DNA of 44,007 bases from Caldilineaceae bacterium SB0661_bin_34 (lineage in GTDB: Bacteria; Chloroflexota; Anaerolineae; Caldilineales; Caldilineaceae), in assembly GCA_009841145.1 (NCBI GenBank), contig VXMJ01000091.1:3709-47715 (forward strand), read 5' to 3'. Both the position numbers and the translations under genes were made by a program. The notes beneath the pieces were generated by a model that was not told the origin of the DNA, made no database searches, and worked only from the letters and a program-made list of their open reading frames with translations. Positions 1 to 43,433 of this stretch are shown here, one piece after another; the stretch's first letter is position 1, and every line of letters starts with the position of its first letter.

Positions 1-2380
1 GGGCTTCGGCGGCGAGCAGGACCTTGGCAAATTCCGCATGCCCTTCCCCAGCGGCTCTGTGCAGCGGGGTCCAGCCCGTGTCGTCCTGTGCGTCGGCATC
101 GCCCCCTGCAGCGAGCAGGACTGCGGCGACTTCGGTATGTCCTTGCCAGGCTGCCGTGTGCAACGGGATCCAACCGTCGCGGGCCTGTGGGTTGACCTGG
201 GCTTCGGCGGCGAGCAGGACCTTGGCGACCTCCGTATGCCCTTCCCCAGCGGCCCTGTGCAGCGGGGTCCAGCCCGTGTCGTCCTGTGCGTCGGCATCGC
301 CTCCTGCAGCGAGCAGGACTGCGGCGACTTCGGTGTACCCTTGCCAGGCTGCCATGTGCAGGGGGGTCCAATTGCCATTGTTCTGTGCGTCGACCTGGGC
401 ACCGGCAGCGAGCAGCAAGTCCACGGCTGCGGCGTGTCCGTGAGACGCTGCCGTATGCAAGGGGGTCCCGTTGTCGACATCCTGTGCGTCGGCATCGCCT
501 CCTGCAGCGAGCAGGATTTCGGCGACTTCGGTATGTCCTTGCCAGACTGCCGTGTGCAACGGGATCCAACCGTCGTGGGCCTGTGGGTTGACCTGGGCTT
601 CGGCGGCGAGCAGGGCCTTGGCAAATTCCGCATGCCCTTCCCCAGCGGCCCTGTGCAGCGGGGTCCAGCCCGTGTTGTCCTGTGCGTCGGCATCGCCTCC
701 TGCAGCGAGCAGGACTTCGGCGACATCGATATGCCCTTGCCAAGCCGCCGTGTGCAAGGGAGTCCAGCCGTCAGTGTCCTGCATGTCGACTTGGGCTTCG
801 GCAACGAGCAGGACCTTGGCGACCTCCGTATGCCCTTCTCCAGCGGCCCTGTGCAGCGGGGTCCAGCCCGTGTTGTCCTGTGCGTCGGCATCGCCTCCTG
901 CAGCGAGCAGGACTTCGGCGACATCGATATGCCCTTGCCAAGCCGCCGTATGCAAGGTGGTCCAGCCTTCAGTGTCCGGGGCATCCACATTCGCACCGGC
1001 AGCCAGCAGCACTTCCATGACTTCGGTGTGCCCTTCCCACACCGCCGTATGCAAGGGGGACCAGCCGTTGACATTCTGCGCGTCGACCTGGGCACCGGCG
1101 GCGAGCAGCAAGTTCGCGACTGCGGTGTGTCCGTGAGACGCTGCTGTGTACAAGGGGGTCCCGTTGTCGACATCCTGTGCGTTGACTTGGGCACCGCCAG
1201 CGAGCAGAACTTCGGCGACATCGATATGCCCTTGCCAAGCCGCCGTGTGCAAGGGAGTCCAGCCGTCAGTGTCCTGCATGTCGACTTGGGCTTCGGCAAC
1301 GAGCAGGACCTTGGCGACCTCCGTATGCCCTTCTCCAGCGGCCCTGTGCAGCGGGGTCCAGCCCGTGTCGTCCTGTGCGTCGGCATCGCCCCCTGCAACG
1401 AGCAGGACTTTGGCGACATCGATATGCCCTTGCCAAGCCGCCGTATGCAAGGTGGTCCAGCCTTCAGTGTCCGGGGCATCCACATTCGCACCGGCAGCCA
1501 GCAGCACTTCCATGACTTCGGTGTGCCCTTCCCACACCGCCGTATGCAAGGGGGACCAGCCGTTGACATTCTGCGCGTCGACCTGGGCACCGGCGGCGAG
1601 CAGCAAGTTCGCGACTGCGGTGTGTCCGTGAGACGCTGCTGTGTACAAGGGGGTCCCGTTGTCGATGTTCTGTGCATCGACATCTGCACTAGCACCCAGT
1701 AACACTTCTGTCACTTCCATGGTCCCGTGCATGGCCGTTTCGTGCAACGGTGTCATCCCTTGGACATTGCGCAAGTTGACGTCTGCACCGGCAACCAGCA
1801 GTAAATTCGCGAATTCGGCATGGCCTTCTCCAGCTGCTCCATGCAATGGTGCCCATCCATCCTCGTCCTGCGCGTCGACTTGGGCATCGAAGTCAATCAG
1901 CAAGTTCGCGACATCTGTGTTGCCTGCCAGGGCTGCCATGTACAACGGAGTCGTGCCATCTGCATCCGTTTCGTTGACTTGGGCACCGGCAACCAGCAAT
2001 GCTTGCGTCGCTTCAACATGGCCTTCCAAAGCTGTCGTGTGCAACGGTGTCCAACCCTTGTCGTCCTGAACACTGACATCTGCGCCGGCGAATAGCAATG
2101 CCCGCACTGCTCCGGTGTTTCCATCCACTGCCGCTGCATACAACGGTGTCCAACCTTGGTTGTTCTGTGCTTCGATACTCGCGCCGGCGGTCAGAATGCA
2201 CTGAATCGTTAAGAGATCATCATTCCACACCGCGATGTGGAGTCGAGAGTTCCCGTCCTCGTCCATGTATTGCAGATCAACATCCGCTAATCGGGCAGCA
2301 CACAATTCGCTTGTGCAAGCGGCGGCACTTGCCAGCACCAACACTCCACAAAGTAGCAGCCAGAAATTTCTAGGGCTCAT
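1..2380 (-). CDS. Ankyrin-repeat protein with N-terminal signal peptide, 3' end outside window
   Basis: The frame starts at ATG 2380 and stays open to the left edge (at least 793 residues), so the C-terminus lies outside the window. The first residues (MSPRNFWLLLCGVLVLASAA, then AC) form a signal peptide ending in a possible but non-canonical lipobox. From about residue 40 the protein is almost wholly 33-residue ankyrin units, recognisable by repeated G-x-TPLH...GH...LL..GA patterns, roughly 23 of them. Ankyrin stacks bind other proteins; an exported one would act in the periplasm or outside the cell. Repeats near the N-terminus are diverged while those further on are nearly identical. The start has only a weak GGAG about 9 nt upstream. 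It is the last gene downstream of thrC and the epimerase, 227 bp away, and may be transcribed alone. The partner is unknown. Confidence 0.85.
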   Translation of the reverse strand, partial: MSPRNFWLLLCGVLVLASAAACTSELCAARLADVDLQYMDEDGNSRLHIAVWNDDLLTIQCILTAGASIEAQNNQGWTPLYAAAVDGNTGAVRALLFAGADVSVQDDKGWTPLHTTALEGHVEATQALLVAGAQVNETDADGTTPLYMAALAGNTDVANLLIDFDAQVDAQDEDGWAPLHGAAGEGHAEFANLLLVAGADVNLRNVQGMTPLHETAMHGTMEVTEVLLGASADVDAQNIDNGTPLYTAASHGHTAVANLLLAAGAQVDAQNVNGWSPLHTAVWEGHTEVMEVLLAAGANVDAPDTEGWTTLHTAAWQGHIDVAKVLLVAGGDADAQDDTGWTPLHRAAGEGHTEVAKVLLVAEAQVDMQDTDGWTPLHTAAWQGHIDVAEVLLAGGAQVNAQDVDNGTPLYTAASHGHTAVANLLLAAGAQVDAQNVNGWSPLHTAVWEGHTEVMEVLLAAGANVDAPDTEGWTTLHTAAWQGHIDVAEVLLAAGGDADAQDNTGWTPLHRAAGEGHTEVAKVLLVAEAQVDMQDTDGWTPLHTAAWQGHIDVAEVLLAAGGDADAQDNTGWTPLHRAAGEGHAEFAKALLAAEAQVNPQAHDGWIPLHTAVWQGHTEVAEILLAAGGDADAQDVDNGTPLHTAASHGHAAAVDLLLAAGAQVDAQNNGNWTPLHMAAWQGYTEVAAVLLAAGGDADAQDDTGWTPLHRAAGEGHTEVAKVLLAAEAQVNPQARDGWIPLHTAAWQGHTEVAAVLLAAGGDADAQDDTGWTPLHRAAGEGHAEFAKVLLAAEA
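702..1668. repeat. Tandem near-identical 495-bp block inside the ankyrin gene
   Basis: The sequence from about 702 to 1172 recurs 495 bp later (about 1197-1667) with very few differences. For example, the end of the phrase tatgcaaggtgg falls at 960 and again at 1455. The period of 495 bp equals five 99-bp ankyrin units, so the duplication keeps the frame. A second, shorter relation has a 396-bp offset (four units): 84-227 resembles 480-623. Both point to recent unequal recombination within the gene. Confidence 0.85.
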
Positions 2381-2607
2381 GTCTGGGCTCCGACGTAAGT
2401 GGCCATGGGCGGGGACAACACTGGGACGGGACACACCATTCCCGCCAAGAGCAGGCATTCCCATCCGATTCTCCGAGTAGGCTTGCAGTTTGTTTCGATC
2501 GAGAGTTCGCGTGTACGCCGCCTTTAGTGGTCCTGATTTCGCCAACGAAGCGTTGACTCGTACGTTGCGGAAGGCATTATCTGGTAGTTTCCTGTGACCC
2601 CGCACTT

Positions 2608-30669: not shown

Positions 30670-32640
30670 TCATGTCAATATGTTTCGAATTTTGATTTGA
30701 GGAGAACTCCAATTTCTATTCATAAACCAATATCCATCAACCACAGATGACGAAGTCTGAATCGAAATCAAGCCAAACCACTTATCGGCGTCACTCTTGT
30801 GTCGAAGAGCAAGTTTGAAACAAATTGATCTCACTTGTGCAGAAGTAAAATAAATCGGAAAACTGGTAAGTGTGATCCCCAACTCTCCACCTTCCAATCT
30901 AAAAGAACAATCATGCATCTTGCCATCAAGCATAGTTTGCATTTTCGCTGAATCGAATGTACTAACAACGCGATCAGCAAACTCAGATGTAAGCCCATAA
31001 AACGAAAAAATTACATCAACTACAAAAGGACCTCCTAGGTGTTTCAATTCTGCATGTAACGACTTGGTGTTCTCAGTCCAGTAGGAACTGATCACCGTAC
31101 TTGTGTCTACACCTGGCAATGGTTGGCCTTTACTTGCAGGAAATAAGACATCCACAACATTCGCAAGCTGTGGTTCAGGGACTACAACATCAAAATCGCG
31201 AGACTTCCCTAGAGGAGACCGCAAATGCAATCCAAGAATCTCCATTTCCGAGTTCATAATATATTGATTTCCAAGGCCAGTACGTTGACTCACATAATAG
31301 AGGAGATCAATTTGATCCTTGAGGAGACTGCAAATGATCTCCAAATCAAATACACTCATTATCAACGGAAACGGATCGCCTTCTTTCTTCTCCAATAGGG
31401 CTCTTTGTTGGGCTTGCAGTGCTGGATAGCTGTCACCAGTAATGCACAGAATATAAATCTCGTCCACGGATGAAATGTTTACCCGACTGCCTTTGTTATT
31501 CACTAGCTTGACTGTGTTGTCATTCAATATAAGGGACCGACAACTCAGCCCCTGAGTATAGGCACCCTGACAAGCTATTTGGAAATCATTTTTCAATTTG
31601 GATCTGTCTCCTCTTTTCGCTAATGCTGTAAGCTTTTTTGATTTGACTTGAACTACAAATGCTTTGTTGCTATAGACAAAAAGCACATCAATCTCAGCTT
31701 TTATCTGTTTGCCCTTTAAAATGTTCACTCCTTGGTATGTTCGGCCATTCTGATTGGAATCAAACAAAATGTGATATACGATTCTTTCGGTGGCTGGGCC
31801 TCGGTTGCGCAACGCTTGTTGGCTGTATTTATTATCTTCACACATCCAGTAATATGGACTTTCATAGATGGATTGGTTCAAAAAAGTGTGATCTGCCAAA
31901 AAGTAACGTTGATCAAGCATGATCAACGGTGTGATCTCTGCATCATTGACGTCGTTAATATGGTCAAACTTTTTATTGGCTTCCCCAGGTTGGCATGAGA
32001 ACAGGTCAAAAAAGCGATTTACCGTTTCTGCTGGCTCGCTGTGCAGCTGCGTAGGGTCAATACAGAACACATCCAATAAATCAGTATTGGCGCACTCATT
32101 CTCCCGTGGATTAGCTCTTGTACCTTTGATCTCAACAGCAATGTTGATCATCGATTGTATACTGATTCCCAATGAGTTCTCGAACCACTCTTCGTCGTAG
32201 GCGTACCGATAGGATGCTAGTTCGAGCCATTGGAAGTCGTAAGCTCCCGGATTGTCATAAAAAATCGGCTCAACCAGCGGTTGGAGTTTCAGAATTTCTT
32301 CGACAGAATTAAATTTCTCTGATTGTAGGTCAGAAAATGACGGGAACTCGGACAATGAAACAGAATTGTGGAGTTCCTCTAACAAGCGGCCTGCCTTTTT
32401 TTGTTGACGCTCAAATGAAAATTTGCATTTGGGGAGTTCTAGGGTTATGGGATTCTTGATCATCAACCCCAGTAGAAATGATAGTTCTTTGTGATTGAGG
32501 CGATTGGTCCAGTTGACGTCCAAGATGTCGGATGGTGCAATAGCAATATTTTTCAATACCAATGTGCAATATGCATAAATGAAACCTTGTTTGTTGACCA
32601 AGTTGGTAAGTTGGGAAATAATCGGCGTGGGGTCTGCCAT
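30670..32640 (-). CDS. AT-rich large protein with PD-(D/E)XK-like nuclease motif
   Basis: The 656-residue protein was not recognised as a whole. Near its middle, ERIVYHIL then AEIDVLFVYSNKAFVVQVKS (about 20 residues) matches the order of a PD-(D/E)XK nuclease core: a helix Glu, an Asp in a strand, and Q-x-K in the next strand. The NERD and related nuclease-like domains look similar. The N-terminal third is mostly helical and the C-terminal third has alternating strands; no membrane segment is visible. Its base composition is far more AT-rich than every neighbour and its codon use follows, so it was probably acquired. ATG 32640 is preferred; the frame extends to GTG 32772 into the IS-adjacent hairpin. 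It lies next to an IS and the defence operon and may be a defence effector. Confidence 0.6.
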   Translation of the reverse strand: MADPTPIISQLTNLVNKQGFIYAYCTLVLKNIAIAPSDILDVNWTNRLNHKELSFLLGLMIKNPITLELPKCKFSFERQQKKAGRLLEELHNSVSLSEFPSFSDLQSEKFNSVEEILKLQPLVEPIFYDNPGAYDFQWLELASYRYAYDEEWFENSLGISIQSMINIAVEIKGTRANPRENECANTDLLDVFCIDPTQLHSEPAETVNRFFDLFSCQPGEANKKFDHINDVNDAEITPLIMLDQRYFLADHTFLNQSIYESPYYWMCEDNKYSQQALRNRGPATERIVYHILFDSNQNGRTYQGVNILKGKQIKAEIDVLFVYSNKAFVVQVKSKKLTALAKRGDRSKLKNDFQIACQGAYTQGLSCRSLILNDNTVKLVNNKGSRVNISSVDEIYILCITGDSYPALQAQQRALLEKKEGDPFPLIMSVFDLEIICSLLKDQIDLLYYVSQRTGLGNQYIMNSEMEILGLHLRSPLGKSRDFDVVVPEPQLANVVDVLFPASKGQPLPGVDTSTVISSYWTENTKSLHAELKHLGGPFVVDVIFSFYGLTSEFADRVVSTFDSAKMQTMLDGKMHDCSFRLEGGELGITLTSFPIYFTSAQVRSICFKLALRHKSDADKWFGLISIQTSSSVVDGYWFMNRNWSSPQIKIRNILT

Positions 32641-32722
32641 GTTTCTTCTCTTTGAATAGATTAGGTTGAACAATTGCTGCAATAGCATGATATTTGGCGG
32701 CCTTTTATAAATGTCGATGGCG

Positions 32723-32747
32723 TGAACAATTTTCGAGATAAAGATGT
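32723..32747 (+). repeat. Left copy of an imperfect 25-bp direct repeat
   Basis: The sequence TGAACAATTTTCGAG followed by ATAAAGATGT matches 22 of 25 positions at 43451-43475. Further similarity continues a few bases beyond. It lies next to an IS remnant here and a transposase remnant there, so it may be an IS end. Confidence 0.6.
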
Positions 32748-32753
32748 TGCCGG

Positions 32754-32784
32754 CTAGGGCAGGGCGCAGCACTCCCTGCCCTAG
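32754..32784. repeat. 11-bp perfect inverted repeat abutting the IS end
   Basis: CTAGGGCAGGG and CCCTGCCCTAG are exact complements separated by 9 nt. The right arm shares its final CTAG with the first bases of the IS. It may be a terminator-like target into which the element inserted. Confidence 0.6.
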
Positions 32785-33597
32785 TGAGCTGCTGAAGATT
32801 TGGTTTGGGAAGCGATCGGCAACGGCGTAAGGTACGCGGTACCGGAGTTCGGGCAGTCCGATGGGCCTTGAAGCCCCTGTTGCGGTACCGCATGTCCCCT
32901 GGTAGCCGCGCAGAGTTGTTGTTGTCTCATCCGGACGGCTTTGCTGCAGTCACCGGCTCGTCCAAGAGCTTGGCTAGGCGCATCAGATGGTAGTCCGTCG
33001 CCACCAAGTAGTCGGCCACACTGGTCTGCTCTGCGTTCCGGTAGTGGGTTCTCAGGAAGCTCTTGAGGCTGGCCACAGCCTCGATCAGTGTCCCGTCCAC
33101 GCTGAAGTGCTCGCCCGACAGCAGCCCTTCTTCGTCGGCCACCCACACCACCTCGTCGAAAAGGGCCCGGCCCGCGTCGTACGCCAGCAGCCGTTGCCGG
33201 TTCTTGGTGAAGACCGTGGCATCGAAGCTGCGCTCCTTCAGATCCATGTCTTGGAACTAGCAGTAGAGTAGGTTGTACTCGAGCTCCTCGCCGAAGGCGC
33301 GCTCGCTGCGCACCGAGTACAGGGCGATCAGGAGCGAGGCCTTCAGCAGCCGCTCCGGCGGCACCGAGGCGCGTCCCACCCGCGCGTACATGCGGTCGAA
33401 GGTCGGCGAGAACCATGCCAGGGCCGCATCGGCCACTTCCTCAATCCGCCGCAGCGGATGGTCCCGGGGGAACTGTTCCTTCAGGTCCACGATGACCAGC
33501 ATGCTGCGTTGGGGGTTGGGACCACCGCGCATCAGGAACTCCTTTGTTGCCATGCAGACCTAGTCCTAACTGGCCGCGTTTTTCAGCAGTCTACTAG
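32781..33597 (-). mobile_element. Deleted insertion sequence with terminal inverted repeats (IS1182/IS5-like)
   Basis: The ends are CTAGTGAGCTGCTGAA (32781-32796) and, on the other strand, CTAGTAGACTGCTGAA (33597-33582), matching 13 of 16 positions. Between them is a broken transposase gene read on the minus strand. The total of 817 bp is about half of a complete element of this kind, so it has lost its middle. The family name is from memory of end sequence and protein and should be checked. Confidence 0.7.
32927..33553 (-). pseudogene. Transposase pseudogene (nonsense codon and internal deletion)
   Basis: The frame from ATG 33553 reads as a DDE transposase N-terminus (RSMLVIVDLKEQFPRDHPLR; PPERLLKASLLIALYSVRSE; FGEELEYNLLYC). 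A TAG at 33257-33259 interrupts it where relatives continue with W-F-x-D-M-D-L, and the same frame resumes with DMDLKERSFDATVFTKNRQ and EHFSVDGTLIEA, which carries the first catalytic Asp. After LKSF the frame passes directly to a segment like the extreme C-terminus of the family (TDYHLMRLAKLL), so the other catalytic residues are deleted. It cannot transpose by itself. Confidence 0.8.
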
Positions 33598-34342
33598 AGA
33601 GTGAGAGGCACGAGAGCCAGGGCGTCTACGAAGGCGGATGCGGTCTTAGGGTACCCGGTCTCGTAGCAGCATGTGGGCGGGCGCGAACGCGGCGGAAGCC
33701 CTGCTCCCGCAGTTCCACGGCAGTGACAGAGTTGGTAGGCATAGGTCGGACCAAGGTGCTGCGGTGGTACCGGCAGAAGCCTGGATGCAGTGCGGCTCCC
33801 CGCTGGGTGGGATGGGCAAGCTCTCCCACCTGACATCGGCACAGGAGGCGCAGTTTATGGTGGTAGCCCGGGACTGGGTCGAGGCACAGTGGGGCATCGT
33901 TTACACACGCCTCAACCTTCAACTGGACCTGGTAGGAGACCTGCGCCCGCGCAGGGCCGCAGGCCGGTGGAGGGAGGGGGATGGCAATATCCTTCCGTGG
34001 TTTCCACGGACAAAAATCATAACGCAATCATCATAGTACCAGCTCCCAAGGCGGCCAGTATGACCGACCAGTGGGGGCTTTGGGTACCGCAGGTGTGCCG
34101 GTTGTCCTCGCAGGACACGCAAGTGCTCCCTGCCCTCCATCCTAGATGTTATGAGACTGAGTGGAAGGTACGTCATTTCATAACGTTGCGATATGATAGA
34201 TCTGGGTTGATTCGGCCCGGGTGGCCGCCTGTCGGAGTGGGAGGAGAGCACATGGGCAAGACGAATCTGTTTCGTCGTGATTTGGTTCGTTGTGCCACCA
34301 ATCCTCAGCAATCGTCCGGTCAACACAGTTCCTGGAATGCCC
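33598..34342. other. Non-coding or decayed region upstream of the defence operon
   Basis: About 745 bp. Frames on both strands (plus 33671-34036, minus 34027-33626) show no recognisable domain and are probably relics. The promoter of the operon should be near its right end; a TATGAT hexamer at about 34190 may be a -10 element, without a convincing -35. Confidence 0.4.
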
Positions 34343-37294
34343 ATGTCAAGTCTGAAAAGTCTGGTCCGCCCTCGCAAGGAGGTATTGGAATCCACGCTTG
34401 ACGAATCGATTTTCGCTGCGAATCTGGGTACGGTGCTGCAAGGCACTGCGCCACCCGTCTACGGAGATGCGGGTGAGTTCTTTTCTCGCACCCATCCATC
34501 GTCTGGGCTGAAGGCCCTGCTCAACCTCTGCCTTGGGCGCCTTGTAGGCGCACAGCCGGACGCGCCGCCGATCATCCGCATCGACACCAACTTGGGTGGC
34601 GGCAAGACCCATAACCTAATTGCCCTCAGCCACGCGGTTCAGGGCGGTCTGGACGCAGCCTCCGCGGAAAGACTTCTGTCGCCACCGGTCAGACAGACGC
34701 TGGACCAAATGCCGGGTGTGCGCTTGGCCGCTTTCGTAGGCACCGACCATGGCGTGTCCGAAAGCGAAAGCACCATGTGGGGGCTGCTGGCCAACCAACT
34801 GGGCGGAGCGTCGGGTTATGCCCTGGTGCGTCCGGACGATGTGGGCCGAACCGCTCCAGGCACCGCCACGCTGGCAGAACTATTGGGCAACGAACCCAAT
34901 CTGATCGTGGTCGACGAGATTGCCCAGTACCTCCAAAAGGCCGATGGAGTGGCAGTGGGAAACGGTACGCTTGCGGACCAGACCTTGACTTTCCTGATGG
35001 CCCTGTGTGAAGCCGCAGCCCGGGTTCCACGTACGGTTCTGGTCCTGACAACCACACAAGATTCGAGCGTATTCAGCAGCGGTACCGAGAAGGTCGTTGC
35101 CTTGATGACCCGTGTGCGGGAAATCACCGGACGGCAAGCCCACCTAATCCAGCCTTCAGCGGAGGCAGACCTGCCTTCCATCCTGAGCCGCCGGCTGTTC
35201 AAGCATGTGGATCGCTCTTACATTGCAGACATTGCTGCTTCCTATGCGGATGCCCTGACAGCGGCGGAGCAGCGCTGGGAGAGCGGTTTGCCTGCCGAAC
35301 TGGCTCCCGTGCGTCTGGCATCCCGCATGCACGAGACCTGGCCGTTCCATCCGGAACTCATTGTGTTGCTGGACAAGCGGCTTTCGACTAACCCCTACTT
35401 CCAGCGCACCCGTGGAGCCCTGCGTCTGTTGGCCCGGACAATTCAGTTGCTCTGGAAGAACGGGGCAGCGTCCGCCAGTGCAATCCATCCACATCATCTG
35501 GACCTGGCTGACGGGGTCATCATTCGACCGCAGTTGACCCAAGCCCTGCAGCAGCCCCAGATGGAAGCTGTGGCACGGGCCGATGTGGCCAATGAGAATG
35601 AGCATGAACCTTCGAGGGCGGACCTGATAGACCAGCGGTACGACGCGTCCTGTATCCGCCACGCCGCGACTACCTGCTTTGTCCATTCCCTGCACTTGGG
35701 CGCGGCCATGACGCAAGGACATACGCTGGCCACCACGCTGGAACCCGGCACGGACGCGGACATTCTGCTGGATGGATGGACCCGGCTGGTTCGAGAGGCC
35801 TGGTATCTGCATCAGGACAGTGAGGGCTTCCGCTTCAAGACGGAGCCGTCCTTGACCAAGATGGTGGTCGACCGAACGAACGAAGTGCGGACATCGCAAG
35901 CGCGCAGTGCGGCACAGGAACTGCTGGAGAACCTCTTCTCTTCCAGTAGCAGCACCGGCAACGTCCGTCGCATGTACCTCAACGAAAAGGCACCCGACAA
36001 CCTTGCCCATATCAACATCTGCGTCTTCGGATGGGCACAGTTCAAGGGCGAGCACGGTGTGGTCGATTACGACTCTCCGCCTCAGGTCATTCTGGACCAC
36101 TGGAGGCAGCTGGACAGCGGTGGACAACGGCGGTACCTGAACCACATGGTGTTCATTGCACCGAATGCCCAGTACTACGACCGCATGCTCAAGGTCCTAC
36201 AACGCCGCATTGCCCTGGACACCCTGATTCAGGATGGTTCGGTCACGGAACGCCTGAGCCCGGATGTCCTGGGCGATCTCACGGATCGTTGCAACAAGCA
36301 GCAGCTGGAAGCTCGCGTCGCTGTCGCGAATGTTATGAATCTCTGCTGGTATCCGGCTACGAACGACAGGCTGGAACTGGTGGAACTTACGGTGGACAGC
36401 AAGGCCCGAGCCAAGCGGAACCAGACAGAGGTCATCTTCGAGCAATTGCGCGAGCGGGGGAAGCTCCTGACAGCGGACAGTTCCCCCATGGACCCGGCGC
36501 GACTGAGGCAGATGCTGGGAGAGCGTCTTAGCCGCAGCATCACCATTCGCGGTGTGCAGGAGTTCATGGCCAGCTCCGGCAGCAGTCCCATGCTTCTGGA
36601 TTCCGGGCAGCTGCGGACGGTTATCCAAAACGGCATTCGTATGGATGTTTGGGACTGTCAGCAGGCGAACGGCGGCTGGGTAGACAAGCTGGACCTGGAT
36701 TCCTTCAGTCTGGACGAAGAATACCGCCTCCATGCGCCTGGAACCAAACCAGAACCGTGTGCCCCATGCGACAAACCAACCCCCGCAGCATGTCCCGCAT
36801 GTGGTGAGCATTCCTGTGTTTGTAGCCAACCTCCGCCAACCAGTGAATTCCAGTCCACGCGTGCGCCTGCAGAAGCGATTGAGGATGTAGTTGCCCAGGC
36901 CCAGGACGCTTCGGCCACCCGTATGGAGGAACTGATTCTGGAATGGGATGCAGAGCAGGATGCCGCGCTTGGGTGTGTGGCCAAAGCCCTGCACACGCTC
37001 GCGCAAGTCCGAATCCACCCCAACGTTGATCCATCGCTGAGTGTTGATCTAGACACGGAAACCGAGGGCAAGCCATTCACCCTCAAGATGACATGCTCCG
37101 CGCCGCAAGCCCAGATGATGGGGGACAGCCTCAAGGCCATCCTTAGGCAAGGTGAAGGGACTGCATGCACAACCAGGATTGTGCTCGCCTTCCCGGCCTC
37201 GACATCGGTTGAGGGAAATGAGAAGCGAACAATCCAGGACGCCGTACGAGGGACCATGGTCTCAAGGTCCCTCACCATCCTGAAAACGGCATGA
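34343..37294 (+). CDS. DUF499-type AAA ATPase of a defence-associated operon
   Basis: The 983-residue protein matches the DUF499 ATPase family. The P-loop LGGGKTH is at about 84-90 and the Walker B acids at VVDEIAQYL (Asp191-Glu192). The family is related to the large ATPases of BREX-like systems and is often found beside DUF1156 methylases. Near the C-terminus (nucleotides about 36757-36831) is a Cys cluster of CxxC, CxxC and CxC that could bind zinc. The start could be ATG 34343 or 34337; upstream frame starting at GTG 34277 is less likely. Its stop overlaps the next start (ATGA), so it is the first gene of a coupled operon. It probably couples ATP hydrolysis to DNA sensing or loading of the methylase or helicase. 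Confidence 0.85.
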   Translation: MSSLKSLVRPRKEVLESTLDESIFAANLGTVLQGTAPPVYGDAGEFFSRTHPSSGLKALLNLCLGRLVGAQPDAPPIIRIDTNLGGGKTHNLIALSHAVQGGLDAASAERLLSPPVRQTLDQMPGVRLAAFVGTDHGVSESESTMWGLLANQLGGASGYALVRPDDVGRTAPGTATLAELLGNEPNLIVVDEIAQYLQKADGVAVGNGTLADQTLTFLMALCEAAARVPRTVLVLTTTQDSSVFSSGTEKVVALMTRVREITGRQAHLIQPSAEADLPSILSRRLFKHVDRSYIADIAASYADALTAAEQRWESGLPAELAPVRLASRMHETWPFHPELIVLLDKRLSTNPYFQRTRGALRLLARTIQLLWKNGAASASAIHPHHLDLADGVIIRPQLTQALQQPQMEAVARADVANENEHEPSRADLIDQRYDASCIRHAATTCFVHSLHLGAAMTQGHTLATTLEPGTDADILLDGWTRLVREAWYLHQDSEGFRFKTEPSLTKMVVDRTNEVRTSQARSAAQELLENLFSSSSSTGNVRRMYLNEKAPDNLAHINICVFGWAQFKGEHGVVDYDSPPQVILDHWRQLDSGGQRRYLNHMVFIAPNAQYYDRMLKVLQRRIALDTLIQDGSVTERLSPDVLGDLTDRCNKQQLEARVAVANVMNLCWYPATNDRLELVELTVDSKARAKRNQTEVIFEQLRERGKLLTADSSPMDPARLRQMLGERLSRSITIRGVQEFMASSGSSPMLLDSGQLRTVIQNGIRMDVWDCQQANGGWVDKLDLDSFSLDEEYRLHAPGTKPEPCAPCDKPTPAACPACGEHSCVCSQPPPTSEFQSTRAPAEAIEDVVAQAQDASATRMEELILEWDAEQDAALGCVAKALHTLAQVRIHPNVDPSLSVDLDTETEGKPFTLKMTCSAPQAQMMGDSLKAILRQGEGTACTTRIVLAFPASTSVEGNEKRTIQDAVRGTMVSRSLTILKTA

Positions 37295-37689
37295 CCCTGT
37301 CGTACCGGCTGGTTGCGAGCCGTGATACCGATGGCTGCATCAATCGGTTCGATGTCTTGGATGTGGATGGTCGGTCGGTCACCCTGCATGGCTGGCGCGC
37401 AGAAGCTGTTGTGGATTCAGTCCAGGCAACCCTGACACGCGCATCCAGGCGCCTGTCATTGGCGGTGGATCGGCCTTTGCATCTGGACGAACACCTAGGG
37501 GTTCAAGTCCTGCTGATTTTGCGAGCGGTCAAGCCGCTTGCCGGCTATCAACGTGTCACTCGGGTGGCGATGGGTATAGCCCGAATGTCCGAAGAAGAGG
37601 CCACCTATTGGCATGCCCATGCCGCCCACAAGGGTGGACTCCCAGCATTGAGGAAGTTGCTGATTTCATGTCCAAACCACGCCCTCTAA
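37291..37689 (+). CDS. Small unknown protein coupled to the DUF499 ATPase
   Basis: The 132-residue protein starts inside the stop of the ATPase gene (ATGA) and overlaps the methylase start at 37668, so all three genes are translationally coupled. It is predicted to be mixed strand and helix with no membrane segment. Small proteins of this size commonly follow DUF499 genes, but I do not recognise a named domain with certainty. It may be a structural or adaptor subunit of the complex. Confidence 0.7.
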   Translation: MTLSYRLVASRDTDGCINRFDVLDVDGRSVTLHGWRAEAVVDSVQATLTRASRRLSLAVDRPLHLDEHLGVQVLLILRAVKPLAGYQRVTRVAMGIARMSEEEATYWHAHAAHKGGLPALRKLLISCPNHAL

Positions 37690-40600
37690 TCACGCGATGG
37701 TTTCCTGCGGCGACCATCGGCGCGGAGTCACTCCGCGATGTATCCGCCGGACAGCAGCCGCCGCCCAATCGCCTCCATGTGTGGTGGGCCCGCCGACCGT
37801 TGACCACCGCACGCGCGGCTGTTGTTGCAACTCTTTTGCCGGCTTGGCAGGACCCTGAAGGGATACAACCTCATGAACACGCCCCGACTCGCTACCCAAT
37901 GGATGCCAACCCCTCAGTTGGGAGCGGAGTCCCTCAGGGAGAGAGCAGCCTCAAGCTCTCTTCCGCCCCTGTACTTCCTACACGTTTGGTGGGCACGTCG
38001 CCCTCTGATTCTGGCCAGAGCGGCGGTGCTGGCAGCACTACTGCCAGCGTGGACAGAAACCAATCTTCGCCCCCCCCCTCTGAAATTCAGGAATTGCTGA
38101 ACTCTACGTTCGGTTCGGAATCCGAGTACAGACGGTGGTTCCTTGAGGCGATAGGCATCAAGGGGGATCCAGTTGTTGCTAGACAGCAGATTGTTGAAGC
38201 TGTACAGTCTGGAAACCGCATAAAGAACCCATATGGTTACAACCGTGCTTTCACATCCAATCCCTTACCCGAGCATCGACAATTTCTGAAAACAATAACA
38301 TATTTTCAGAAAGATACCGCTGAAAGCAATCAACCCGTAGTCCTTGATCCATTTGGTGGTGGTGGCTCGATTCCCTTTGAAGCTGCGAGATACGGGTGCC
38401 ATGGGCTGACCACTGAACTGAATCCAGTTGCAACAGCGATTCTCCATGGAACGGTCGATTTGCCGTTCCGCTTGGGTGAGGGTTTCTCTGAAACTCTTTC
38501 GCAATGGGGAGAGTACTGGTGCCAGTTGATCAACGACCGACTGGCACGATTTTTCCATCGTACAGACGAACAGCGCTTGGCTTGTGTTTGGGCACTAACC
38601 GTACCTTGTCCCACCACCGGGCATCCCACCCCTCTGCTCCCCAACCACTGGTTGGCTCGTACTGCCCAACAGAAGGTGGCGATCAAGCTGCATCCGGACA
38701 GCGAAACTGGGCGAATCTCGATCGAGTTGCTAGGCAGTGCCACTGTATCAGAGGGCAACCAGTTCACCTACAAGCGTGGAGCGGCCACAAGCGTATTCAC
38801 TGGAGACACCTTTGACGGCAAATACATTGCCTCTGAGGCTCAGGCTGGCCGCATGGGGCATCTGTTGTATGCCATCGCTTATCGTCCCGCTAACGGCCGG
38901 GGGACCCAGTTCCGAGTGCCGGTTGACGAGGATTTCGCGGCCTTGGGGAAGGCTGAGCAGTACCTCAAGGTCAATTGGGATAAGTGGGATGCCAAGGGAC
39001 TGATACCTACCGAGCCATTTCCAAGTGGGTCTGACAACAGGCCTCTTACCTACGGCATGCTCCGTTGGTGTGACATGTTCACAACCCGCCAATTGGTGGC
39101 CCTGGTCACTGCAGTTGAATGTCTGCACGAAGTCCTTGAGGAAGCCTCCGACGAACTGGACTTGGATACGCTCAAGGCGCTCAACCTGTACCTCGCTTTC
39201 GCGATTGACAAGGTCGTGGACTACAACAGTAGGTTGACCATGTGGGATCCAACCTATCTGAAGGTCGCCCACGTCTTCTCTCAGCACAATTTCTCATTGA
39301 GCTGGACGTTCGCGGAGATGGAGGGAATTGATGCCTGTCGCTGGGGGCTGAAACAGGTTGTTGACTGTTACAGGGACATCTCCAAGCTGGTTGGTAGAGC
39401 ACAGGTATCTAGAAATGGCGCGTTGCTGCCGGATCAGGTGTCTGCACCACTTCTTCCGGCAGAACCTACTTTGACATCTGCCACCACACTTCCCTATGAG
39501 GACCAATCGGTTGATGCCATCGTGACGGATCCTCCGTACTACGACAACGTCATGTATGCAGAACTCTCGGACTACTTCTACGTATGGCTCAAACGCTCTC
39601 TCAAGCCCTACTGGCCAGAACTCTGTCGGCAGCACCTCTCCGACAAGGACAACGAGGCAGTGTCCAACCGAGCCCGTTTCGCCGATATGGCCACCCACTC
39701 CGGACGCGGTAAGAAACCACCCGGCGCCGTAACGGCTCAGGAACTTGCCGAAGCCCACTACCAGTCCATGATTGCTCGCGCTTTCGCCGAGGCATACAGG
39801 GTGTTGCGAGACCACGGTGCCATGACGGTGATGTTCACCCACAAGAGAGCCGACGCCTGGAATGCACTGGCTACGGGGCTCCTCAACGCCGGTTTTCGCA
39901 TCGAGTCTTCGTGGCCGGTTTCCACTGAGTCGGAGCATTCGCTCCACCAGAAAGGCAAGAATGCGGCGAACGCCACGATCCTTCTCACCTGCACCAAGCG
40001 AGGGAGTTCGGAGCCTGTGTGGTGGGATGACATCCAGTCGGAAGTTCGGAAGGCGGCACACGAAGCTGCAATTCGGCACGCCGAAGATGGCTTGGCCGGT
40101 GTGGACGTAACCCTTGCGTCCTTCGGTTCGGTGCTGTCAGTCCTGTCCCGACACTGGCCCGTCTACACCGGCAACCTTGACGCTGACGGCAATCGTCAGA
40201 TCATTTCGCCTGAGGTGGTTTTGAACCTTGCTCGGGAGGAAGTCGGCCGCACCAAGATTGCCCGACTGCTCCAGGGACGACAGGAGTACCAGTTTGATCC
40301 ACCTACCCAGTGGTGGCTGCTTGCATGGCATGACTTCGGAGCACCAAAGTTCCCCGCTAGCGAGGCAATCAAGCTTTCCCATGCGACACACCTGGATCTG
40401 GAGACCGAACTGCGCAAGAGTTGGCGCCTAGTGGAGACCAAGAGTGGAACTGCTGAGATCCTGACCCCGGCCAGACGCTTTGAAGCACGGGCCTTCCAAG
40501 TGGATTCCCTCTACCTACTGGACACGTGGATTGATCGGCTTCATGCCCTGATGGTGATACACGAACAGGATGGAGCAGTTGCGTCACGCCAGTGGCTCGG

Positions 40601-40802
40601 TGACCGGGAGCTTGATCAGAGCCAGCATCTCAAGGAGTTGGTGGACGCTGCCCTGAGGGTAGTCCCAAGACACAGGAACAGCAATGGTGAACTGGCCCTG
40701 CCCGAAGCGCGAACATTGGAGTCGATGCGCCAAACCCTGGACCTGTTCCATGATCTGGAGCCGCCAGCTCCCGGCATTGCCCAGATGGATCTCTACGGTT
40801 AG
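37668..40802 (+). CDS. DUF1156-type DNA methylase with a doubled N-terminal region
   Basis: This 1044-codon frame encodes an N6-adenine or N4-cytosine DNA methylase. It begins with a DUF1156-like module (GAESLRD ... LHVWWARRPL, residues 18-45), has SAM motif LDPFGGGGSIPFEAA (about 226-240) and catalytic motif Asp621-Pro-Pro-Tyr (TDPPYYDNVMYAELSDYF). In between, residues 61-135 read as an unusual low-complexity linker because they translate, out of frame, a second N-terminal module at 37873-38064. A run of nine C at 38070-38078 sets the frame. ATG 37668 overlaps the preceding gene and has AGGAAG about 11 nt upstream. The enzyme would modify host DNA so that the helicase or nuclease partners spare it. 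Confidence 0.85.
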   Translation: MSKPRPLITRWFPAATIGAESLRDVSAGQQPPPNRLHVWWARRPLTTARAAVVATLLPAWQDPEGIQPHEHAPTRYPMDANPSVGSGVPQGESSLKLSSAPVLPTRLVGTSPSDSGQSGGAGSTTASVDRNQSSPPPSEIQELLNSTFGSESEYRRWFLEAIGIKGDPVVARQQIVEAVQSGNRIKNPYGYNRAFTSNPLPEHRQFLKTITYFQKDTAESNQPVVLDPFGGGGSIPFEAARYGCHGLTTELNPVATAILHGTVDLPFRLGEGFSETLSQWGEYWCQLINDRLARFFHRTDEQRLACVWALTVPCPTTGHPTPLLPNHWLARTAQQKVAIKLHPDSETGRISIELLGSATVSEGNQFTYKRGAATSVFTGDTFDGKYIASEAQAGRMGHLLYAIAYRPANGRGTQFRVPVDEDFAALGKAEQYLKVNWDKWDAKGLIPTEPFPSGSDNRPLTYGMLRWCDMFTTRQLVALVTAVECLHEVLEEASDELDLDTLKALNLYLAFAIDKVVDYNSRLTMWDPTYLKVAHVFSQHNFSLSWTFAEMEGIDACRWGLKQVVDCYRDISKLVGRAQVSRNGALLPDQVSAPLLPAEPTLTSATTLPYEDQSVDAIVTDPPYYDNVMYAELSDYFYVWLKRSLKPYWPELCRQHLSDKDNEAVSNRARFADMATHSGRGKKPPGAVTAQELAEAHYQSMIARAFAEAYRVLRDHGAMTVMFTHKRADAWNALATGLLNAGFRIESSWPVSTESEHSLHQKGKNAANATILLTCTKRGSSEPVWWDDIQSEVRKAAHEAAIRHAEDGLAGVDVTLASFGSVLSVLSRHWPVYTGNLDADGNRQIISPEVVLNLAREEVGRTKIARLLQGRQEYQFDPPTQWWLLAWHDFGAPKFPASEAIKLSHATHLDLETELRKSWRLVETKSGTAEILTPARRFEARAFQVDSLYLLDTWIDRLHALMVIHEQDGAVASRQWLGDRELDQSQHLKELVDAALRVVPRHRNSNGELALPEARTLESMRQTLDLFHDLEPPAPGIAQMDLYG
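37873..38100 (+). pseudogene. Second DUF1156 N-terminal module in another frame, cut off at the C run
   Basis: From ATG 37873, with AAGGGA about 9 nt upstream, a frame encodes MNTPRLATQWMPTPQLGAES ... LHVWWARRPLILARAAVLAALLPAW, clearly homologous to residues 1-60 of the longer frame (GAESLR and HVWWARRPL shared) but only about half identical. It ends at TGA 38098 just after the C run. If the run had ten C (or seven), this frame would pass directly into SEIQELLNSTFGSESEYRRW and the complete catalytic body, with a natural linker. It is therefore either the ancestral or alternative start of the methylase, switched off by one base, or an artefact of homopolymer length. Confidence 0.75.
38070..38078 (+). 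repeat. Nine-C homopolymer, possible phase-variation tract
   Basis: Nine consecutive C lie at the junction between the doubled N-terminal modules and the methylase body. Slippage by one base would exchange which N-terminus is in frame. Such tracts cause phase variation in many methylase genes, and they are also frequent sites of sequencing error. Confidence 0.7.
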
Positions 40803-40820
40803 CAACGGACTGGATCGAGA

Positions 40821-43433
40821 ATGTCTGGATTGCGCGATCTGACGCTGAAACCCAAGTACGGGCTCGGTGATGACTTCCTGAATGATGTGTACGTTCCGCT
40901 CTTGGGGAGAGCGATCCGATATACCCGGGCCGTTGGATACTTCAGTTCAGGCGGCCTCGCGTCGGTTGGTTCGGGATTGGAATCCTTCATTCGCAACAAC
41001 GGTTCCATGCGCCTGATGGCAAGCCCGGTGGGATGGAGTCCGCAAGATGTGGAGGCACTGAGCGGCCACCGGGAAATTCCTCGGGAACTTGCTGACCGGC
41101 TTGCCAGGTCCTTGATTACCAAGAGCGACATCGAGCGGGACCATCTGTCGGTGTTGGCCTGGCTGATGAGAGAAGGCCGACTTGAAACCCGCATCATCAT
41201 CGGTCCGAACGGTCAGCTCTTCCATCAGAAAGTGGGCATGTTTTGGGATTCCAGGGATGATGCCGTTGGCATTGAAGGGTCCAACAACGAAACACTAGCC
41301 GGTTGGGACTCGAACATCGAATCGCTTTCGGTCCGTCGGTCCTGGCTGGATCAGGAAGCCTGGTTCCCCGCGACCATTGCAGAGCTCGACCGGTTGTGGC
41401 AAGGCAGTTCCCACAGCAGGTCATACTCGCTGCCTGAGGCTGTGAGGAAGGAGTTGCTGAAATACGCCCAACACAGGCCACATCCGATTCCGAAACCAGT
41501 TAGCAAGTCCCTGCAACTCTACCCACATCAACAGGAAGGCTGTGACCGGCTCCTTGCAGCATGGCCGGAGTCCCGCTTACTGGCCGATGAGGTTGGTTTG
41601 GGCAAGACGATCACAGCCTCCGCAGCCATGCAGGCTCTGCAGGCGCAAGGGAAATGCCAGAGAGTGTTGATCTTGGCGCCTGCCAACGTCTGTATCCAGT
41701 GGCAGGAGGAACTTGCGGAGAAGTTCAACATGAAGGTTCCCCGCTTGGTAAAGAACTATCTCCACAATGTTGATGGGAGCGAACATGCGGCAGTCAATCC
41801 TCTCAATGAACCCATGCTCATTGCCTCGTGGCATCTGATGCGACAGCCGACTTGGCGTAGCCGTCTACTGCAAGGACCGGATTGGGATCTGGTAATAGTG
41901 GATGAAGCGCACCATGCGCGCCGTCGTAGTCCAGGTTCCGACCTCAAATCAGGAATTCGGCGGCCGAATCAGTTTCTGGAACTGCTTGAAGAGGTGTTGC
42001 CCCAGATTGCTCGCACGCTGTGGCTCCTGACCGCGACACCCGTCCAGCTTCACTTGGTCGAATTATTTGACCTCCTGAATGTCATCAAACCCGATTCAGA
42101 ACCGCAATCATCTCCACTGGGCTCTTGGTTCAAATTTGAACGCTTTTACACGGCGCTGGCTGCTCCCAAAAGCGACCGGAACTGGGAAGCCTTGGGTATG
42201 GGAGTAGGTGAGACAGTGCCAGTCCAACTGGACCCCCGCAAATACAGTGAACTGAAACCATTCTTGCGGCGTCAACTGACAGGGTTCGGCAGACCAGGAC
42301 GCGATGCCGTACAGGACGCAGACACCCTTGTTAAGCATGAACTGCAGGAGGAACTACTGGAATCCATTCGGCAGCGTTCGCCTGGCAGCCGGCTGATGCT
42401 GCGCCGTACCCGTAGAGACGCGGACATGCAAGGGGCGTTTGCGACCCGGCAGCCATCCAAAGAGGCTATCGAGTTTGCCTCTGCGGAGGAGCGAAGTCTG
42501 TATCAGGAACTGGATGCCTTCTTGGCTGGCCTATGGGCCATGAGGCACGGCAGAGACAAGGGGTTTGGTTTCCTCTTGTCAATGTATCGGCGGCGCTTGA
42601 CTTCCAGTTGGCAAGCCATTGAACGCACGATTCAGCGTGCGCTGGCTGCCACCAGCCTGCCCGATGACGAAATGGAACTGCTGGAATCGGGGCTGGACGC
42701 AAGCATGTCCGATGAGATCGGCTCTGGCGGCAATGAGGAAGGATTCAGTACTGAAGAGATGGAAGTCCTTCGGTGTTTTGCTGCCAGGATCGGAGGTGCC
42801 ATTCGGGGAGCCGGCGATCCCAAGATTTCCAGCTTGGTGCAGGATCTTCACACCTGCCGTCTTCAAGGCAGGTCCATGCTGGTGTTCACTCAGTTTATTG
42901 ATACGTTGGAATACATTCGGGATACCCTACAGTCGACCTATGGCTCCCAAGTTGGTACATACTCTGGTCAGGGGGCAAGGCTGTTTGAGGATGGTACATG
43001 GACCCCGGTGTCCAAGGAGCAACTGACCTTGGCGCTTGCCAATGGCGAGATCTCCATCCTGCTCTGCACCGATGCAGCCAGTGAAGGTCTCAACCTTCAG
43101 ACTGCAAGCACATTGGTCAATTACGACCTTCCTTGGAATCCAATGCGCGTTGAGCAGCGTATTGGACGCATCGACCGCATCAACCAAGCAGCGCGAACTC
43201 TTTCCATCCGCAACTACGTGATGTTGGATACCGTGGAGGAGCAGGTGTATGACGCTTTGCGAAAACGCATCAGAGTGTTCGAGGGTTCGGTTGGTGAACT
43301 ACAGCCTATCTTGGGTGAGGTGGAAGACCTTGTCACGGGGTCTACTGTCGGCAACGTAGTGAGAAACTTGGACAGCCACATCGCTGCCATGGGAAACACA
43401 GGTAAGCCGATTGCGGCAGCATTGCGATGCTGA
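40821..43433 (+). CDS. PLD-like domain plus SNF2-family helicase
   Basis: The 870-residue protein combines an N-terminal phospholipase-D-like domain (His135-x-Lys137 in FHQKVG, and GSNNET at 153-158) with a SNF2/RapA-type helicase: P-loop ADEVGLGKT (255-263), DEAH (361-364), LTATP, and C-terminal motifs EGLNLQTAS and QRIGRIDRI. Single HxK domains of this type can be nucleases. Similar PLD-SNF2 proteins occur in DISARM-like and DUF1156/DUF499 defence loci, where they are thought to act on invading DNA. It starts 18 bp after the methylase and ends 18 bp before an IS-like repeat, so the C-terminus may have been shortened by insertion. Confidence 0.88.
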   Translation: MSGLRDLTLKPKYGLGDDFLNDVYVPLLGRAIRYTRAVGYFSSGGLASVGSGLESFIRNNGSMRLMASPVGWSPQDVEALSGHREIPRELADRLARSLITKSDIERDHLSVLAWLMREGRLETRIIIGPNGQLFHQKVGMFWDSRDDAVGIEGSNNETLAGWDSNIESLSVRRSWLDQEAWFPATIAELDRLWQGSSHSRSYSLPEAVRKELLKYAQHRPHPIPKPVSKSLQLYPHQQEGCDRLLAAWPESRLLADEVGLGKTITASAAMQALQAQGKCQRVLILAPANVCIQWQEELAEKFNMKVPRLVKNYLHNVDGSEHAAVNPLNEPMLIASWHLMRQPTWRSRLLQGPDWDLVIVDEAHHARRRSPGSDLKSGIRRPNQFLELLEEVLPQIARTLWLLTATPVQLHLVELFDLLNVIKPDSEPQSSPLGSWFKFERFYTALAAPKSDRNWEALGMGVGETVPVQLDPRKYSELKPFLRRQLTGFGRPGRDAVQDADTLVKHELQEELLESIRQRSPGSRLMLRRTRRDADMQGAFATRQPSKEAIEFASAEERSLYQELDAFLAGLWAMRHGRDKGFGFLLSMYRRRLTSSWQAIERTIQRALAATSLPDDEMELLESGLDASMSDEIGSGGNEEGFSTEEMEVLRCFAARIGGAIRGAGDPKISSLVQDLHTCRLQGRSMLVFTQFIDTLEYIRDTLQSTYGSQVGTYSGQGARLFEDGTWTPVSKEQLTLALANGEISILLCTDAASEGLNLQTASTLVNYDLPWNPMRVEQRIGRIDRINQAARTLSIRNYVMLDTVEEQVYDALRKRIRVFEGSVGELQPILGEVEDLVTGSTVGNVVRNLDSHIAAMGNTGKPIAAALRC

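Follow-up and report, generated by a model that had tools for sequence, protein, structure and literature searches.

The Methylase Locus and Its Tandem Modules

We examined a stretch of 44,007 nucleotides (nt), hereafter the window, from a metagenome-assembled genome (MAG) of Caldilineaceae, Chloroflexota (G000; 4.34 Mb in 102 contigs), and within it a gene for a predicted N6-adenine methylase whose N-terminus is encoded twice. Two homologous modules of the DUF1156 family, here termed M1 and M2, lie in tandem ahead of a single catalytic body, and a run of nine C separates the second of them from that body (table 1). The modules are 59% identical, and both score above the Pfam cut-off for DUF1156 (24 bits). 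The distance of 205 nt between their starts sets their frames one base apart, and each is preceded by its own Shine-Dalgarno (SD)-like site; an earlier note on this DNA had described this anatomy, and all of its anatomical statements hold. With nine C, the M1 frame crosses the M2 DNA and enters the body, giving an uninterrupted protein of 1044 amino acids, again as the note had read it, and M2 ends after 75 amino acids, just past the tract. The stop of the small DUF7680 gene overlaps the M1 start; M1 occupies the canonical gene start, and the spacing from M2 to the body is canonical too. The motifs of the body (motif I glycines, DPPY) are invariant over 36 orthologues.

Table 1. Positions of the methylase modules, the C tract and the surrounding cassette genes in the window
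Feature	Position	Strand	Evidence
DUF499 AAA+ ATPase (HmaC / BrxC-like)	34277..37294	+	Pfam DUF499 101.9 bits; PADLOC HmaC 2.5e-79
Small gene, DUF7680	37291..37689	+	Pfam DUF7680 82.2 bits; same place in relatives
SD-like GAGGAAG ahead of M1	37650..37656	+	Sequence
Module M1, DUF1156 allele type A (RDVSAGQQPPPNR-LHVWWARRPL), ATG 37668	37668..37871	+	Pfam 64.0 bits; dN/dS
Variable segment of M1, residues 23-35	37734..37772	+	Column variation across 36 orthologues; low-pLDDT loop
SD-like AAGGGA ahead of M2	37858..37863	+	Sequence
Spacer of the M1 form: 66 codons of M2 DNA read in the M1 frame, disorder predicted	37872..38069	+	dN/dS; pLDDT
Module M2 open reading frame, DUF1156 allele type B (RERAASSSLPPLYF-LHVWWARRPL), ATG 37873	37873..38100	+	Pfam 56.0 bits; dN/dS; M2-body fusion in G002:C72
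Variable segment of M2, residues 22-35	37936..37977	+	Column variation across 36 orthologues; AlphaFold model
C9 tract, putative frame switch	38070..38078	+	Sequence; spacing comparison among loci
Methylase body: motif I DPFGGGG 38346-38366, target-recognition (TRD) region, motif IV DPPYYDN 39528-39548	38079..40802	+	PADLOC HmaB 6.8e-71
SNF2 helicase with N-terminal PLD/HKD-like part	40821..43433	+	PADLOC PLD_Helicase 7.1e-66; Pfam SNF2, Helicase_C

Tract Length and Reading Frame within the Genus

The comparison covered four genomes of the window's genus, which is known from MAGs, with five loci, four of them distinct, the copies in the window and in G001 being near-identical. Both modules are kept in tandem at all five. 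The earlier note had allowed for the opposite outcome, single-module nearest relatives with M1 as a truncated neighbor gene; the closest relatives carry two modules. The spacing between a fixed G and the sequence TCTGA is 9 in the window and G001, 10 in G002:C72, 11 in G003:C55, and 8 in G002:C57, and over columns 79–500 of the DNA alignment indels occur solely at this tract. This is the pattern expected of a slipped-strand phase-variable gene, a coding repeat that varies in length among relatives (8, 9, 10, 11 nt) and shifts the frame. At a spacing of 10 the gene encodes an M2-body protein of 979 amino acids, so that the fusion which the earlier note had predicted for ten C is realized in G002:C72. 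At spacings of 8 and 11 neither module is fused: both end right after the tract, out-of-frame readings meeting a stop within ~10 codons of it, and the body is left without a plausible start of its own. These two loci point to a third, off, state beyond the two that the note had envisaged. All three frames are present among the related loci, and both an M2-on and an off copy are found in a single genome, G002.

Between the window and G001 the copies agree at 99.86% of positions over 9.2 kb and differ by scattered single nucleotide polymorphisms (SNPs); they belong to almost a single lineage but were assembled separately. Nine C stand in both, and the uniform run of ten, which the note had named as an outcome that would refute it, is not what these assemblies contain.

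The bodies are mosaic (window 38079-39500 compared with L027, L028, and L029). Their blocks around motif I are 35–37% identical between a window/C57 group and a C72/C55 group, and the C-terminal half is mostly >90% identical, a pattern that would fit an exchange of the target-recognition region.

Selection on the Modules

Ratios of nonsynonymous to synonymous substitution (dN/dS; pairwise Nei-Gojobori) indicate purifying selection in every pair, with 0.05–0.13 for M1, 0.02–0.17 for M2, and 0.10–0.20 for the body. Thus, M1 and M2 are each maintained as protein, and M1 is no relic. The M1 frame read across M2, by comparison, gives 2.8–6. A recent M1/M2 duplication was considered and rejected: M1 and M2 share only 55–63% of their DNA positions, which implies an old duplication or separate origins.

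Module Types in Orthologues

All 34 other orthologues, drawn from Chloroflexota, Actinomycetota, Cyanobacteriota, and Pseudomonadota, carry a single in-frame module, which belongs to one of several alternative allelic types. The module columns are strongly conserved (LIExWLP..xIGxES.RE; LHVWWARRPL..SRAA) except for a segment of ~13–14 residues between them, which is of type A (..PPxNR, as in M1), type B (..LPPLYF, as in M2), or one of the others, C, D, and E. On the tree of the bodies the type label changes 15 times, against 15.3 when labels are shuffled (109 of 200 shuffles are as low), and A versus B alone accounts for 8 changes. On a plain reading, the segment would be an allelic element exchanged between lineages.

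In the window's genus one A-type and one B-type module stand side by side. A DNA pattern for such tandems (two WW(A/S)R(R/K)-P elements ~205 nt apart) matched only this genus among 396 genomes of the class; 11 matches in IMG/VR were discarded as chance, being devoid of DUF1156 similarity. The paired modules also share residues. T8 and A48 are common to M1 and M2, and each of the other 34 orthologues lacks them; in G002:C57 (L029), the modules at 2524-2727 and 2729-2923 both read WWSRKPL, in different codons, where 36 of 36 aligned sequences read WWARRPL, which may reflect a change made in parallel or a conversion long ago. Such shared residues appear to tie both modules to one partner, whether they arose by common ancestry, conversion, or co-adaptation.

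Predicted Structures

AlphaFold2 models were obtained for the M2 form (mean predicted local distance difference test [pLDDT] 85.4; predicted template modeling score [pTM] 0.84) and the M1 form (mean pLDDT 81.0; pTM 0.81). The modules adopt the same predicted fold, with near-equal pLDDT profiles over residues 1–60; the variable segment forms a low-confidence loop, and residues 65–134 of the M1 form, with pLDDT <50, are predicted to be disordered. Searches for a close solved relative yielded none, with one weak match; Foldseek with the full model was likewise weak, and methyltransferase folds were recovered by VIA-align. In the latter, both forms match class I methylases of the Trm11/Trm14 kind from module residue 10–14 onward, and the Trm11 alignments begin at an equivalent residue in the two forms (11 and 10; Z 16.3 and 18.0). 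In the AlphaFold models, M1 and M2 occupy equivalent places in the methylase fold. The module seems to form part of the face that binds S-adenosylmethionine (AdoMet) ahead of motif I, which would explain why a body devoid of any module should be inactive.

A Slippage Model and Its Rivals

We propose, with moderate confidence, that this gene encodes a phase-variable N6-adenine methylase in which slipped-strand mispairing at the poly-C tract selects the M1 form, the M2 form, or an off state. Slippage of the C run during replication would shift the body among three frames. At a spacing of 9, M1 (allele A) would be joined to the body via a disordered 70-residue spacer derived from M2 DNA; at 10, M2 (allele B) would be joined through its natural linker; at 8 or 11, neither would be joined, the body would go untranslated, and the methylase would be off. 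In each fusion the HVWWARRP element of the module is expected to pack against the AdoMet-binding fold, upstream of motif I, and so to restore an active enzyme; we infer this for the M1 form too, despite the length and disorder of its linker. A and B differ in the variable loop, which probably tunes a contact, either with the DNA target, our favored guess, or with a partner; a change of DNA target would be one possible effect of the A/B difference. Fast switching within one population may likewise be expected under this model. The reading of the earlier note is borne out in part: its suggestion that a slippage tract chooses the N-terminus is supported by the three frames in related loci, the selection on both modules, and the use of either type as the normal N-terminus among relatives.

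Several observations weigh against this proposal. Since the window and G001 are nearly one lineage, the M1-fused state has essentially been seen once. Tract states were compared across species and paralogues, and slow mutation could account for the changes in length. The 66-codon spacer in the M1 frame is free of protein constraint, and AlphaFold's placement of M1 may have been steered by the alignment. Segment distance correlates weakly with body distance (Mantel r 0.32, vs 0.49 for the flanks), so that exchange of the segment is not completely free. Finally, the open M1 frame over M2, considered as a sign of fusion, was dropped as evidence because a stop-free frame is expected by chance in 22–34% of random synonymous recodings of M2; it is the retention of both modules at 5/5 loci, with purifying selection on M1 and indels confined to the tract, that argues for more than chance.

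The main rival is an ordinary ON/OFF switch of the M2 form, where only the M2-body protein would work (spacing 10), 8, 9, and 11 would all be off, and M1 would be either a short protein in its own right or a duplicate in decay. The unselected M1 spacer fits this view, as do the natural linker of M2, its distance from the body, which is that seen in all relatives, and the ending of mis-framed products right past the tract. Yet M1, with dN/dS of ~0.1, keeps all invariant motif residues and changes in parallel with M2, and the relatives examined yielded no protein family consisting of a lone module. The selection on M1 argues against the rival and renders it unlikely, though by no means negligible. 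Considerably less probable is an action in trans, in which M1 and the unfused short M2 would pair as subunits with the body or the fused protein, the tract altering their stoichiometry and not their identity. Every state does yield at least one short free module with its own start and SD-like site; however, the module is fused in frame in all other orthologues, and the body of the off loci has no credible start from which to be made separately.

Somewhat more remote again is a programmed site, at which the ribosome (or transcription) would slip on the run of C and yield both forms from a single DNA state, with the changes in DNA length incidental. CCC-CCC codons can slip, and in the window a −1 shift would bring M2 into the body; yet the shift needed differs by locus (none, −1, +1), which such a site would not tolerate. 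Least probable of all is an assembly error or gene decay, with a true length that always fuses M2 and an extra module left over: this MAG does hold artefactual poly-G/C runs near contig ends, a point that also counts against the slippage model, but the tract at 38070 is internal to its contig, C9 recurs in another assembly, set apart from the first by SNPs, the four distinct loci, which come from three independent MAG sources, all differ in tract length, and both modules are under purifying selection. Loss of mismatch repair as a cause of instability was also rejected, MutS being found in 4/4 genomes.

A bolder extension of the slippage model is offered tentatively, as possible but doubtful: slippage would swap two homologous N-terminal specificity modules on one defense methylase, a three-position epigenetic switch (A, B, off), with the DUF1156 variable loop as a previously unrecognized, horizontally exchanged specificity element of BREX-related systems and the host alternating two self-marks and two states of phage discrimination. 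If the slippage model itself is right, single-base slippage would choose between two folded N-termini in overlapping frames, beyond mere silencing, and one gene would give two active states and one inactive. Uncultured bacteria and BREX-related systems would then join the known range of slippage-type phase variation. DUF1156 has no assigned role as a module, and its loop from IGxES.RE to LHVWWARRPL would be marked out as a variable functional element.

The Surrounding Defense Cassette

On the plus strand the DUF499 ATPase, DUF7680, DUF1156 methylase, and SNF2 helicase genes follow one another, an order also present at the same-genus loci, to the limits of their contigs, and identical on Rhodococcus and Sinorhizobium plasmids; a Nostoc plasmid carries the cassette with two additional genes ahead of the helicase. 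The ATPase is the upstream partner at loci L023, L024, and L025 too (90–91% identical). The full M1-form methylase scores 58.6 bits for DUF1156 (PADLOC HmaB 6.8e-71). The N-terminal part of the helicase, the predicted effector of the cassette, holds an HQK...GSNN motif at ~41223 and reaches just 13.7 bits for Pfam PLDc_2. DUF499-centered systems were named BREX-related (BR), alias Hma, in a 2026 survey, their N6-methylases bearing a DUF1156 helical N-terminus (PMC12839542). The window resembles them in its DUF499 ATPase, its DUF1156 N6-methylase with motif I and DPPY, and its SNF2 helicase, which is of the PLD/HKD kind as in Type-2 BR. By gene content, the cassette is a predicted BREX-related (Hma-like), DUF499-centered phage-defense system. 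It differs from Type-2 BR in having DUF7680 where that type has DUF3780: the small gene matches only DUF7680 in Pfam (up to E 1), and no stand-alone DUF3780 was found, so that no subtype within BR is assigned. A text search of the survey returned no mention of "phase variation".

Beside the cassette lie a transposase-like gene (32927-33553, minus strand), broken into two overlapping frames, and a gene for a 700-amino-acid protein (30670-32772, minus strand) with a weak NERD/Card1-type nuclease domain, possibly an accessory nuclease. Positions 33247-42428 of the window match L022 (JAPPAJ010000327.1), from the MAG of a different species, at 99.86% identity; that contig parts from the window at 42428, within the helicase, and at 33247, within the remnant of the transposase, which suggests recent transfer, mis-binning, or disruption. 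At the window's edge (1-2605, minus strand) a long ankyrin-repeat-like protein of >860 amino acids, with near-identical repeats, extends past the end. Elsewhere in the source MAG, contigs 2, 3, 6, 15, 18, 20, and 27 (L139-L145) hold mixed poly-G/poly-C stretches as long as 41 bases. Several of them lie close to the end of a contig or beside an N gap, and they are probably artefacts of sequencing. Poly-C runs in the rest of the genome were considered as contingency loci and set aside, several of those examined being close to such ends or gaps and artefact-like.

Comparison with Known Phase-Variable Systems

Phase-variable Mod (type III) and other phasevarion methylases carry a simple-repeat tract that turns one protein ON or OFF by frameshift. 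The window's gene likewise has a simple-repeat tract inside a methylase gene, but its second frame gives an alternative full-length protein. C-terminal phase variation is known in Helicobacter canadensis and the gonococcus (PMC2823697, PMC5320596), and lic2A can be initiated at more than one start codon, each in its own frame (cited in PMC4235727). There, too, different frames give different protein ends, or use different starts upstream of a repeat; those cases mostly concern short alternative tails or expression levels, whereas the window has two folded, selected, homologous modules. In the open-access literature searched, no slippage tract was found described as deciding which of two homologous N-terminal modules is used. 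Nonetheless, the earlier note went too far in calling the design unlike any it knew from described systems, given the close precedents in C-terminal phase variation (PMC2823697) and, by the summary in PMC9577141, in NgoAV.

NgoAV, a type I restriction-modification system of Neisseria gonorrhoeae, offers the closest mechanism. According to that summary, when a poly-G run loses one G, hsdS1 and hsdS2 become fused and specificity changes (PMC9577141, citing Adamczyk-Poplawska 2011), and strains fall into three classes: functional-A, fused-B, and inactive (PMC9577141). In both systems one-base slippage in a homopolymer would decide which parts are fused, the parts in NgoAV being those of the methylase specificity protein. 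As outlined there, however, NgoAV gains or loses the C-terminal half of HsdS, whereas in the window two homologous N-terminal modules would compete for one body, and the enzyme is a predicted single-chain N6-methylase of a BREX-related cassette.
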